From positions 1 to 22,626 of IMG/VR virus record IMGVR_UViG_3300047319_001189: a stretch of 22,626 nt of DNA; one strand, 5' to 3'. Both the position numbers and the translations under genes were made by a program. This document shows positions 3,288-7,799 of this stretch, in pieces (the first letter of the stretch is position 1; each line of letters starts with the position of its first letter). This DNA is from a virus. The notes beneath the pieces were generated by a model. The model worked only from the letters and a program-made list of their open reading frames with translations, had not been told where the DNA came from and ran no database searches.

Positions 3288-5489
3288 ATGTCGGACAGCG
3301 GCGAGTTTGTCCTTGGGGCGGAATCAGCCGCCGGCCCCGAGCCCGAGGAGGACGAGGTTGCATCCGCTCCGGTGGACCGTGACCGCGACCTCCTCGGCGG
3401 CTCGCGCTCGAAGATCCGCGAGAAGCTCGGCAAGGTGTTCGACGACAACGCGCGGGGCTTCGAGGACCAGTCCCCCCGCGCCGACGACCAGGCGCGGTAC
3501 TGGGAAGCCTACAACTGCGAACTGAACGAGTGCCAGTATTACAACGGCATCGCGCAGATCTACATCCCGGCGGTGCGCGATGCGATAAACGCCATCGTCA
3601 CCCGCCTCGGCAACCAGATGTTCCCGCAGGGCGGAAGGGCGATCGAGGAGGTGTCGGCGGACGGCACGCAGTCCTCGGGCCTCATCGGGCTTCTGGAGCA
3701 CTATCTGCGCGAGGCCGAGTTCGAGATCAACGTCGTCAGGCCGCTCCTGCGCCACCTCTACATAGAAGGGCACGGCAACGTCTACGTCGACTGGGCCGAG
3801 ATCGAGCGACAGATTGTTTCACGTGAAACGCACGGCCCCCGGATCGAGATGGGCGGCCAGGAGGTCGAGGCGCCGGGCGAGGAAATCGACGACATCAAGG
3901 AGGAAACAATCGTCGAGGGGCGCCCGGTTTTCGAGGTGCTGCACGATTGCGACGTTCTGGTGCTGCCGCAATCGGCCGACACGATCGAGGAGGCGCTGGC
4001 AAAGGGCGGCTCGGCGACGGTCGTGCGGCGCTGGACCAAAGACAAGATCGAACAGATGGCCGAGCAGGGCCAGATCACGAAGCGCGCCGCCCGCGACCTG
4101 AAGGACGCGATGGCGAAGATGTCGCGCGGCGAGGCGAACCAGGAAAAGAAGCTCCTCGAACACGTCGGCATCCGGGCCGGGGGCAAGGAGGCGACGGTCT
4201 GGGAAACCTGGACGATGCTGCCGCTCGACGACAAGGGGGCCTACAGCGAGGACGGGCGGCCGCGCCTCTGCCGCGTCTTTTTCGGCCCCGAGCGCGAGCC
4301 TCTGGGGTGCAAGCGCAACCCGAACTGGAACGACCGGGTGCCGCTGTGGTCGAAGCCGGCCGAAAAAGTCGCGGGGGTTTTTAAGGGCGGCAGCCCGGCG
4401 GCGCGGGTGATGTCGATCCAGTACGAGATCAACGACGCGGTGAACGAGGGGGCGGACGCCGCGGTCCTCTCGGCCGGCCCGATCATCCGCCAGTCGCCCG
4501 ATGCCAGCGGGCCGCTTGTCCTCGCCATCGGCGCGATCTGGAAGGGGAAGGCGGGCGAACTCGAAATGATGCAGTTCCCCGATCTGACGCCGCGCGCCGT
4601 GACGCGGGTGCAGATGGGGCTGCAGATGATTTTTCAGTCGTTGGGGGTCAACCCGTCGATGCTGCCGCAGCAGACCCGCGCCGGCAGGCCCAATCAGGCG
4701 CAGGTCGCGCAGGAGCAGGCCATCGACCTCCTGACGACGGCCGAGGGGGTCAAGATCGCGAGCGACGCCGGCACCTGGGCCCTGGGGTGGATGGTGGACC
4801 TCGACTACCAGTACCGTGACACCGAGATCACGGTGCGCCAGTTCGGCGAGATGGGCCGGCAGGCCGAGTTGGAACAGGTCGCGCCCCTGCAGAACCGTGC
4901 CGGATTCTCGTTCCTGTGGCGCGGGGCCGAGCAGGTCAAGCTGATGGCGATGATGCAGCAGCAGGGCACCGCGCTCCTCAACGTCGCGCGCACGATGCGC
5001 CAGGAACTGATGGCCGAGGGGATGCAGCTACGCCTCGCGCCGCCGCTTCAGGCTGCGTTCCAGGCGGTCTTCGGATCGTTTCTTGGCTCGCAAACCCTGA
5101 TCGACCAGCGCCACCAGTTGACGGTGCCGCAGGCCGAGGAGAACGAATGGCTCGGCCAGGGCTTCGAGGTGCCGGTGCATCCGCTCGACCAGGACATCGA
5201 GCATCTGCGCGAACTCCTGCCGTGGATACAGCAGACCGGCGACCCGCACGGGACCGGCAAGGTCCACGCCCAGGCGCACATGCTCTCGATGCAGATGAAG
5301 AACATGGCCTCGATGCAGCGGAGCCAAGCCGCGCACGGTGGCGGCCCGCAACAGGGCGGCGGCGGCCCGGGCCAGCCGCAGCCGGGGGCGACGCCGGGCC
5401 AGCCACACGCCGTAAAGCGCCCGCCGGGGGCAATGCATCCCGACCAGGCGGCAGGCGGCGGCATCGTACAAATGCCACGTCGTTCTTGA
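3288..5489 (+). CDS. Portal protein (head-to-tail connector)
   Basis: Portals form the dodecameric ring at the capsid vertex through which DNA enters and to which the tail attaches. Support comes from length (733 aa), position between terminase and scaffold, and a region near residue 70-110 (QYYNGIAQIYIPAVRDAINA, then RLGNQMFP) that resembles podovirus connector proteins. Later segments SIQYEINDAVN and FQSLGVNPSMLPQ fit the stem/clip portion of such proteins. The C-terminus (about 665-733) is rich in Gln, Gly and Pro and is probably a flexible tail. Residues 177-181 (VSRET) are encoded by a 14-base palindrome matching the chromosomal parS core. No strong ribosome-binding site is seen before ATG 3288, 3 bases after the previous stop. 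Confidence 0.85.
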   Translation: MSDSGEFVLGAESAAGPEPEEDEVASAPVDRDRDLLGGSRSKIREKLGKVFDDNARGFEDQSPRADDQARYWEAYNCELNECQYYNGIAQIYIPAVRDAINAIVTRLGNQMFPQGGRAIEEVSADGTQSSGLIGLLEHYLREAEFEINVVRPLLRHLYIEGHGNVYVDWAEIERQIVSRETHGPRIEMGGQEVEAPGEEIDDIKEETIVEGRPVFEVLHDCDVLVLPQSADTIEEALAKGGSATVVRRWTKDKIEQMAEQGQITKRAARDLKDAMAKMSRGEANQEKKLLEHVGIRAGGKEATVWETWTMLPLDDKGAYSEDGRPRLCRVFFGPEREPLGCKRNPNWNDRVPLWSKPAEKVAGVFKGGSPAARVMSIQYEINDAVNEGADAAVLSAGPIIRQSPDASGPLVLAIGAIWKGKAGELEMMQFPDLTPRAVTRVQMGLQMIFQSLGVNPSMLPQQTRAGRPNQAQVAQEQAIDLLTTAEGVKIASDAGTWALGWMVDLDYQYRDTEITVRQFGEMGRQAELEQVAPLQNRAGFSFLWRGAEQVKLMAMMQQQGTALLNVARTMRQELMAEGMQLRLAPPLQAAFQAVFGSFLGSQTLIDQRHQLTVPQAEENEWLGQGFEVPVHPLDQDIEHLRELLPWIQQTGDPHGTGKVHAQAHMLSMQMKNMASMQRSQAAHGGGPQQGGGGPGQPQPGATPGQPHAVKRPPGAMHPDQAAGGGIVQMPRRS
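3815..3830 (+). promoter_or_regulatory. parS: parS-like ParB-binding site inside the portal gene
   Basis: TGTTTCACGTGAAACG matches the widely conserved chromosomal parS consensus TGTTTCACGTGAAACA at 15 of 16 positions, with a perfect inner palindrome GTTTCACGTGAAAC at 3816-3829. In the portal frame it reads GTT TCA CGT GAA ACG, and the first four are not the codons this gene prefers (GTC, TCG, CGC, GAG). That suggests selection on DNA rather than protein. ParB normally loads at parS near the replication origin. No ParA or ParB gene is in this window, so a host ParB is the likely partner (inference). Confidence 0.75.
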
Positions 5490-5514
5490 CAACACGCAAG
5501 ATGTAGCGGCATAG
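5486..5514 (+). promoter_or_regulatory. Possible sigma70-type promoter before the scaffold gene (weak)
   Basis: A perfect TTGACA lies at 5486-5491, overlapping the portal stop. A poor -10 candidate, GCATAG, lies at 5509-5514 with 17-base spacing. It falls in one of the longest intergenic gaps in the window (88 bases), upstream of the highly expressed scaffold and capsid genes. The weak -10 means it may be chance. Confidence 0.25.
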
Positions 5515-5577
5515 GCAAGGTTCGAGCGGGCGATCGCAGTCCGCACCGAGCGGGGGAACGCACCCCGAGGAGAGAGA

Positions 5578-6411
5578 ATGGCACGCACACGCGGCGCTGA
5601 AGCCGATCCTGTTGACGTCGAGGAGGAGATTGTCCTTGGCCCGGAAGATGAAGAAGACCTCGCCGAAGCCGACGCCCCTGAAGATGAAGGGGATGATGCC
5701 GGTGGGGATGCCGATGAACAAGAAGGGGAAGGCGAAGAAGCCGAAGATGTAACAGCGGAGCCTCCCGCACCCAGGCGCGGCGGCGGATCGCAGACGATCC
5801 GAGAGCAGCGGCGACGGGCGCAGGAGGCGGAGCAAAGGGCCGCTCAGCTTGAGCGGGAGTTGGCCGAGGCGCGCGGGTTCCAGCAGGGAATGCAGGCGCG
5901 GGCGGTTGACCCGCAGGCGGCGGCGAGGGCGGAGCAGGAGTTTTATGCGTCGCTGGAGCTGATGGCTCCGGCGGAGGCATACAGGCAGTTGATGCAGCGC
6001 GGGCAGCAGCAGATCGGGAATGTCGTTCAGAATCTTCAGTTTCAGACGAACGAGAGACTAGACAAACAGGCTTATGACGCAGCGGCACGCACATCGAGGG
6101 TTCACCAGCAGTATCGCTCGCAGGTCGAGTCGACGCTGGCCGCCGAGCGTGCCGCCGGCCGCAACCCCGATCGCGAGGTCATCCTCAAATATCTCGTGGG
6201 CAACGACGTGCTCGAACGCGCTAACCGCGCGGCTCCGGCGCAGCGCAACGGCGCGGCCCGCCGTGTCGCGGCGCAGCGCACGCAGCCGACCGGCGCTCGC
6301 GGCGACGTTGCGGCGCGCGGCCGCGGCGCACGCCTCGTTCCCGGCACACCCGAGCATGACGACTGGCTGGTCGCCGAGGGCATCCGATCAGGACACAACG
6401 TATTCGAGTGA
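5578..6411 (+). CDS. Capsid assembly scaffolding protein
   Basis: Scaffolds guide procapsid assembly and then leave. This 277-residue protein has the expected layout: a very acidic N-terminus (about residues 8-60, runs of Glu and Asp), a charged coiled-coil segment around 74-110 (REQRRRAQEAEQRAAQLERE), a helical Gln-rich middle (QLMQRGQQQIGNVVQNLQFQ) and a basic Ala/Arg-rich region near the C-terminus. It sits directly between portal and capsid, the usual place. GAGGAGAG at 5567-5574 gives a strong ribosome-binding site. Assignment is by composition, length and position rather than by a specific motif. Confidence 0.8.
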   Translation: MARTRGAEADPVDVEEEIVLGPEDEEDLAEADAPEDEGDDAGGDADEQEGEGEEAEDVTAEPPAPRRGGGSQTIREQRRRAQEAEQRAAQLERELAEARGFQQGMQARAVDPQAAARAEQEFYASLELMAPAEAYRQLMQRGQQQIGNVVQNLQFQTNERLDKQAYDAAARTSRVHQQYRSQVESTLAAERAAGRNPDREVILKYLVGNDVLERANRAAPAQRNGAARRVAAQRTQPTGARGDVAARGRGARLVPGTPEHDDWLVAEGIRSGHNVFE

Positions 6412-6444
6412 GCGGAGGCCCCGCCTCTGCTTTGTAGCGGAGGC
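6411..6444 (+). promoter_or_regulatory. Bistable hairpin over the capsid ribosome-binding site
   Basis: AGCGGAGGC occurs twice, at 6411-6419 and 6436-6444. Between them, GCCTCTGCT at 6423-6431 can pair with either copy over nine positions (one G-U). Pairing with the first copy makes a hairpin with a 3-base loop and leaves the capsid GGAGG (6439-6443) free. Pairing with the second copy makes a hairpin with a 4-base loop that buries that GGAGG. The first hairpin is followed by CTTTGT, so a weak terminator is an alternative reading. Confidence 0.55.
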
Positions 6445-6452
6445 ATGAACCG

Positions 6453-7799
6453 ATGGCCGTTACCGTAAACACCAGTTCCCAGTACGCCGGCGCAACGACC
6501 CGAATCATCGCCCGGAAGGCGCTGGAGGAAACCCAGCGCTACCTCGTCCTCTACCAGTTCGCCGACAAGGAAACCCTCGATCACGGGCACGGCGTCACGT
6601 GGTCGGCGATCCGCTGGTCCCGCCTGCCGCTGCCGCAATACCCGGTGGCCGAGGGGGTGGCGCCGGTCGCCAACCAGCTTTCGTTTACGCAGGTCATGGG
6701 CTCGGCGGTCCAGTGGGCCGGACGCCTCGTCTTCACCGACGTTTCGATCATCACGACCCAGCAGAACCTCATCACCGAGGGGTCGCGGATGCTGGGGATG
6801 CAGTTGGGCGAGATGAAAGAGCGCAACGCGATGGTCGCGCTGATGTCGGGTTCCCAGGTCAACTACGCCAACTCGGTCGGCTCGCGCGCCTCGCTCGCGG
6901 CCGGCGACAACCTCAACCCGACCGATGTCACCCGCACTTTCGCCAACATGGTCAACCTCGGCGTCCATATGTGGAACGGGCAGACCGGCGAGGACGTGCA
7001 GCGCTCGATCGACTACACCGCGCGGGCGAGCGAGAAGACGATCAAGGGGGTCGAGCACCTCGTCGCGGTCGGCAACGCCTTCCCCTTGGACGACCTCTCG
7101 AACAACCCGACCGTCGTCGCCGCGTGGCAGCGCTCGGACATAAACCGGCTTTACATCAACGAGATGGGGTACTGGAAGGGGATCACCTTCTGCCGCTCCA
7201 ACATGATCCCGACCTTCTTCGGCGTCGCCCAGGTCAACGGGACGCCGGGCACGGGGTCGCTCACCACCGCGACCTACACGATCCAGGTCACCGGCTGGGA
7301 CATCCAGAATTTCTACGAGAGCCGCATCTACCAGGTCTCGGCCGACATCGCGGTCGTCGCGGGCGGCATCAACGTCACGGTGCCCTCGACCCCGGGCTTC
7401 ACTTACGCGGTCTATGTCGGCGTCGGCTCGGGCGCGGCCCCGGCCAACCTCGGCCTGACGACCTCGGGGCCGCAAACCGGGCCGTTCGCGGGCCAGGCCA
7501 TCGGCATCGCGCCGGGCACCGCCGTCGTCATCACGGGCCTCGGCTCGATGGCGATCCCGCCGGCCGCGCCGACCACCGGCATCACGGTCTACCCGACATT
7601 CGTCTTCGGCAAAAATTCGTTTGCGTGCCTGAAGCTCGAAGGGGTTTCGTGGAACCGTCTGATGGAAGCCGACAAGTCGGACCCGCACAATCAACTCCGC
7701 TCGATCGGCTGGAAGGTCTTCGAGGGGTGGGTCATCAAGGACCAGCGCTATCTCGCGCGGATCGAGACCACCGCCAGCAACACCGGAACTTGGACGTAA
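6453..7799 (+). CDS. Major capsid protein, N4-gp56-like family
   Basis: This is the shell-forming protein. The N-terminal 200 residues show the pattern I associate with N4-gp56 family capsids: RKALEETQRYLVLYQFADKE, then G.GVTW..IRWSRLPLP, VAEGVAPV, a block FTDVSIITTQQNLITEGSRM, and MVALMSGSQVNYAN. Length (448 aa) and position after the scaffold agree. Between about residues 263 and 370 lies a Gly/Thr/Val-rich beta segment (for example GINVTVPSTPGFTYAVYVGV) that reads as an inserted Ig/Fn3-like domain, after which the core resumes with TVYPTFVFGKNSFACLKLEG. The ATG follows GGAGG at a spacing of 9. An ATG at 6445 in another frame makes only a 7-codon peptide and is too close to the ribosome-binding site. 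Confidence 0.85.
   Translation: MAVTVNTSSQYAGATTRIIARKALEETQRYLVLYQFADKETLDHGHGVTWSAIRWSRLPLPQYPVAEGVAPVANQLSFTQVMGSAVQWAGRLVFTDVSIITTQQNLITEGSRMLGMQLGEMKERNAMVALMSGSQVNYANSVGSRASLAAGDNLNPTDVTRTFANMVNLGVHMWNGQTGEDVQRSIDYTARASEKTIKGVEHLVAVGNAFPLDDLSNNPTVVAAWQRSDINRLYINEMGYWKGITFCRSNMIPTFFGVAQVNGTPGTGSLTTATYTIQVTGWDIQNFYESRIYQVSADIAVVAGGINVTVPSTPGFTYAVYVGVGSGAAPANLGLTTSGPQTGPFAGQAIGIAPGTAVVITGLGSMAIPPAAPTTGITVYPTFVFGKNSFACLKLEGVSWNRLMEADKSDPHNQLRSIGWKVFEGWVIKDQRYLARIETTASNTGTWT

Follow-up and report, generated by a model that had tools for sequence, protein, structure and literature searches.

A candidate three-segment RNA switch between the scaffold and capsid genes of a soil phage group

Introduction

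How tailed phages proportion scaffold and capsid protein from one mRNA is a general question. In P22, unassembled scaffold reportedly represses its own gene, and such autogenous control balances scaffold and coat post-transcriptionally within a scaffold-coat operon. Between neighboring genes, translational coupling occurs when upstream ribosomes open the downstream ribosome-binding site or reach it by scanning, and structure behind the upstream stop codon reduces the coupling (PMC12548453). In ermC-type attenuators, alternative hairpins are read by a ribosome on the leader (PMC12121999).

Here, we analyzed a gap of 40 bases between the putative scaffold gene and the capsid gene in a viral DNA of 22,626 nucleotides, the whole of which is called the window; the phages that carry such gaps form a soil phage group. 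As in ermC-type attenuators, the position of a ribosome on the upstream ORF would decide which of two exclusive hairpins forms, and one of these would sequester the downstream Shine-Dalgarno (SD) site. In ermC, there are four segments, and a leader ribosome stalled by a drug frees the SD and turns the gene on. The phage element has three segments; in the energy model, covering the first makes the SD costlier to open, and a ribosome there is expected to turn the gene off. The phage upstream ORF is also a full structural gene, and no inducer is known. The output would be inverted relative to ermC because the same logic runs with one segment fewer. RNA-unfolding coupling, as in MS2 coat-lysis and E. 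coli rpmI-rplT, likewise has a structured downstream ribosome-binding site controlled by ribosomes of the upstream gene; there, upstream translation opens the site, whereas the strand covered in the phage is the one that keeps it free. Geometry and energies place a ribosome at the stop codon on the first segment and the linker, favoring the sequestering hairpin, in a model limited to the ribosome at the stop. In contrast with P22-like control, the phage RNA device sits on the capsid gene and is proposed to need no protein. The gap element matched no covariance model of Rfam 15 up to E 1, and the literature search found no paper describing such a scaffold-capsid element.

Gene organization of the scaffold-capsid locus

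The gap lies between two genes that follow a probable promoter.

5486..5515, + strand: probable promoter of the scaffold-capsid unit, TTGACA N18 CATAGG, overlapping the end of the portal-like gene
5578..6411, + strand: upstream ORF, likely head scaffold, 277 aa, stop codon TGA at 6409-6411
6453..7799, + strand: major capsid gene of the N4-gp56 family, 448 aa, ATG at 6453

The capsid protein matched the TIGR04387 profile (E 4e-24, 85.5 bits, cut-off 60) and phrog_1357 (E 4e-20). The upstream ORF is likely the scaffold, judged by gene order (portal-like ORF, this ORF, capsid) and acidic composition; its best family match, phrog_12880 (head scaffolding), was not significant at E 0.56. For the portal-like ORF of 733 aa at 3288-5489, no family in PHROG, Pfam or NCBIfam passed the thresholds applied. 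Most relatives carry TTGACA/G followed 17-18 nt on by a (C/T)ATAG-like hexamer, and the distance to the scaffold start is similar. A conserved promoter-like sequence and a leader with tandem hairpins thus belong to the scaffold gene itself, and one transcript probably has scaffold and capsid as its first two genes. A search of 13 related records for a T7-type RNA polymerase gave no match, and neither did its control.

The scaffold leader (5523-5577) contains two tandem hairpins, at 5523-5538 and 5547-5562, each starting with CGAGCGGG, and the second lies directly 5' of the scaffold SD. In other clades, two GCGGGCCGTAACCCGC-like hairpin copies occupy the scaffold-leader position. These leader hairpins had no Rfam match.

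Two mutually exclusive hairpins in the gap

The gap of the window holds three segments that can be paired in two ways.

6411-6419, + strand: first segment (S1), AGCGGAGGC, 5' strand of hairpin H1, starting at the last base of the scaffold stop codon
6423-6431, + strand: second segment (S2), GCCTCTGCT, shared by H1 and H2, pairs with S1 or S3
6436-6444, + strand: third segment (S3), AGCGGAGGC, identical to S1, holds the capsid SD GGAGG at 6439-6443
6411..6431, + strand: hairpin H1 (S1:S2), SD-permissive state, -14.3 kcal/mol, 3-nt loop CCC
6423..6444, + strand: hairpin H2 (S2:S3), SD-sequestering state, -15.5 kcal/mol, 4-nt loop UUGU

An earlier sequence-only reading had described two identical segments, the first starting at the last base of the scaffold stop, and a strand between them able to pair with either over nine positions. 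All of this was found at 6411-6444, and the nine positions comprise eight Watson-Crick pairs and one G-U. H1 and H2 are mutually exclusive in the window, and one of them buries the capsid SD. Against shuffled sequences, the z-scores in the window were -4.2 for H1 and -5.9 for H2, and approximately 0.1% of the shuffles of the window gap with the SD kept gave two hairpins as strong.

The same reading had named a weak intrinsic terminator between the two genes as the competing view, pointing to the CTTTGT directly after H1 in the window. We rejected it and consider it hardly credible: most relatives have no U-run after H1, which is followed instead by, for example, ATAGC, GTAAC, AGCAA or GCACA, the site was not flagged in a terminator scan, and a terminator makes little sense just ahead of the most abundant structural gene.

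Conservation of the layout and covariation of the segments

We compared 26 non-identical scaffold-capsid junctions from IMG/VR, whose capsids are 47-100% identical. A search for near-identical DNA in named phages found none, no named phage being close, and a search of bacterial genomes with capsid patterns found no relatives. The gaps are 35-52 nt long. This length is not conserved modulo 3, and readthrough of the stop codon into the capsid was rejected on that ground. Counted from the first base of the stop codon, the first paired base of S1 lies at index 0-5 in 26/26 junctions and inside the stop codon itself in 22/26, while S2 starts at index 13-21 and 11-19 nt past the stop. S3 carries the capsid SD site across the 26 elements, and S1 is purine-rich and S2 pyrimidine-rich in every one.

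What relatives keep is the pairing of S1 and S3 each with S2, not the exact identity of S1 and S3; pairing aside, the segment and loop sequences are free to vary. Six relatives illustrate this (S1/S2/S3).

L034: GGCGGGGGC/GCCTCCGCC/GCGGAGGT
L074: GGCGGGGGC/GCCTCCGTC/GACGGAGG
L104: AGGGGGACGGT/ACCCTCCCCC/GGGAGGGT
L058: GGCGGGC/GCCCGCC/GGAGGC
L174: AGCGGGGGC/GCCTCCGCT/AGCGGAGGC
L082: AGCGGGGGC/ACCCTCGCT/AGCGGGGGT

A role of S1 as a decoy or standby SD is disfavored, since S1 of L058 and L068 is not SD-like yet pairs with S2.

In an alignment-free comparison of cognate with swapped segments, S1:S2 gave a z-score of -6.2 and S2:S3 one of -4.8, against -1.0 for the control S1:S3. With the middle segment exchanged between phages, pairing with S1 is weakened by about 3.1 kcal/mol and pairing with S3 by about 2.3 kcal/mol. 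The joint hairpin p-value was below 0.05 in 23 of the 26 junctions scored, while that of H2 alone was weak in several elements. The p-values that follow assume that related phages are independent, which makes them too small. Combined, they were 1e-16 for H1, 9e-9 for H2 and 2e-30 for both in gap shuffles with the SD fixed; 1e-5 for H2 given H1 when the H1 pairs were only reordered and 8e-15 when flips were also allowed; and 4e-16 for S1 given S2:S3. The flanks outside the SD core also covary (p 0.0004 for H2, 0.0006 for H1), with C-G/G-C exchanges at several positions. Evidence from the sister pairs L139/L140 and L174/L082 is free of the independence assumption, because their segments have been rewritten and still pair. 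The covariation check proposed along with the original reading thus came out in its favor, for each hairpin with the other held fixed, and strongly supports mutually exclusive hairpins with one burying the capsid SD. We are confident, on this comparative evidence, that hairpins of similar strength are kept by coordinated sequence change. An interaction of the linker with the capsid start region, seen in several minimum-energy folds, had no covariation support (p 0.37).

If only H1 mattered, it would act as an insulator: a hairpin behind the stop would keep post-termination ribosomes from scanning into the capsid gene, the two genes would be translated independently, and the pairing of S2 with the SD would be a by-product of G/C-rich strands. 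H1 is indeed the most constant part of the element (mean -15.6, sd 1.8 kcal/mol over 26 elements), and structure right after an upstream stop is described as correlating negatively with coupling (Chemla et al., as reported in PMC12548453). A plain hairpin need not keep its pyrimidine strand on the SD side, yet 26/26 do, and S2:S3 covaries beyond H1 (the combined p of 1e-5 above). We consider the insulator unlikely.

Stop-SD-start look-alikes elsewhere in the loci averaged -6.7 kcal/mol for H1 and -8.0 for H2, compared with -15.1 and -12.1 at the junction. Among the other gene junctions of the window and seven related genomes, only one or two reached similar values, and the gene calls there were doubtful. 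In this comparison, made with a crude gene caller, the device thus seems peculiar to the scaffold-capsid junction. The same layout is found in phages whose sequences have changed heavily, and the element therefore probably controls the amount of capsid protein made.

Predicted effect of the terminating ribosome

A ribosome at a stop codon covers about 12 nt downstream, as known from termination footprints and toeprints. With this footprint length taken from general knowledge, the positions of S1 and S2 match it, and the claim that the first strand lies within reach of a ribosome at the scaffold stop stood in every junction. With H1 formed, opening the SD has a mean predicted cost of 3.8 kcal/mol; with S1 covered, the mean is 9.5 kcal/mol. 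The rise exceeds 2 kcal/mol in 21/26 elements and is smaller or reversed in 5/26 (L121, L098, L137, L068 and L112). In the window, the permissive state still costs 5.5 kcal/mol, because capsid codons offer S3 another pairing partner once H1 is formed (GTAGCGG with CCGTTAC). The computed barriers have medians of 10 kcal/mol for H1 to H2 and 13.6 kcal/mol for the reverse, and barriers near 10 kcal/mol make it plausible that the hairpins exchange at a time scale comparable to translation events. S1 of the window is transcribed first and could pair with S2 before S3 is made. H2 often slightly exceeds H1 in strength (mean -17.7 vs -15.6 kcal/mol), so free RNA might be mostly in H2.

Mutually exclusive hairpins, one of them sequestering the SD, and a switching strand under the upstream-ORF ribosome as judged by the general footprint are two features that the gap shares with ribosome-responsive attenuators; a third, a change in downstream translation, is predicted by the energy model. 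On our model, it is an even bet that the gap is a three-segment, ribosome-responsive translational attenuator through which scaffold traffic restrains capsid initiation. During transcription, H1 would form first, with the capsid SD left accessible. A ribosome that has reached the scaffold stop would cover S1 and the linker but not S2; H1 would then be blocked, and S2 would capture the capsid SD, forming H2. With less scaffold translation, H1 would re-form and capsid initiation would resume. Capsid initiation would be held back in proportion to scaffold ribosome traffic, an anti-coupling that would balance scaffold and capsid proteins from one mRNA. The direction, negative coupling, is favored by geometry and the energy model because the terminating ribosome hides S1 and the linker and leaves S2 free; we put it at a little under even chances.

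With the direction reversed, H2 would be the resting state that hides the SD, ribosomes finishing the scaffold would open H2 or pass to the capsid start, and capsid would be made only where scaffold is translated. The slightly greater strength of H2 in many elements fits such positive coupling, as does the commonness of RNA-unfolding coupling, e.g. MS2 coat-lysis and rpmI-rplT (PMC12548453). A ribosome at the stop is predicted to cover S1, not S2 or S3, which favors H2, and coupling is reduced both by the gap length of about 40 nt and by the hairpin next to the stop (PMC12548453). Both positive coupling and the dependence of capsid on scaffold translation that it implies seem to us rather doubtful. 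The scaffold or another phage protein could instead bind one hairpin and set capsid or scaffold output. Scaffold genes are autoregulated in some phages such as P22, and the scaffold leader here likewise carries conserved tandem hairpins, while the free variation of segments and loops would be unusual for a protein-binding hairpin; we regard a protein-operated switch as improbable.

Returning to the ribosome-responsive attenuator, we only tentatively extend it to the claim that the terminating scaffold ribosome shuts the capsid start and that the three-segment switch thereby sets the scaffold-to-capsid ratio, whose tuning the sequence-only reading had suggested as possible. If true, this 40-nt switch, which would work without protein and is conserved by covariation across phages with capsid identity down to 47%, would be a compact and directly testable answer to how the two proteins are proportioned. 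It would also show a terminating ribosome coupling two genes negatively, opposite to classical translational coupling, and would offer a simple way to design operons in which two genes are expressed in anti-correlation.

Variation and replacement of the element

We looked for relatives that had dropped the upstream copy of the SD-bearing segment. Where the gap type is kept, the pairing of S1 is kept as well, in line with the original proposal; that S1 must copy S3 did not hold, and in four deeper relatives (L076, L077, L078 and L081) the element is absent or replaced. In L078 the scaffold-capsid gap is just 10 nt, and L081 has an unrelated hairpin in its place.

In the sister pair L139/L140 (approximately 2445-2500), the capsids are almost identical and the gaps completely different, with H1 and H2 formed in both, which suggests exchange or rapid co-evolution of the whole element. 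Upstream of the capsid start in L077 (near 1029) and L076 (near 2504), a different hairpin seemingly has the capsid SD within or close to its loop and may solve the same problem in another way.
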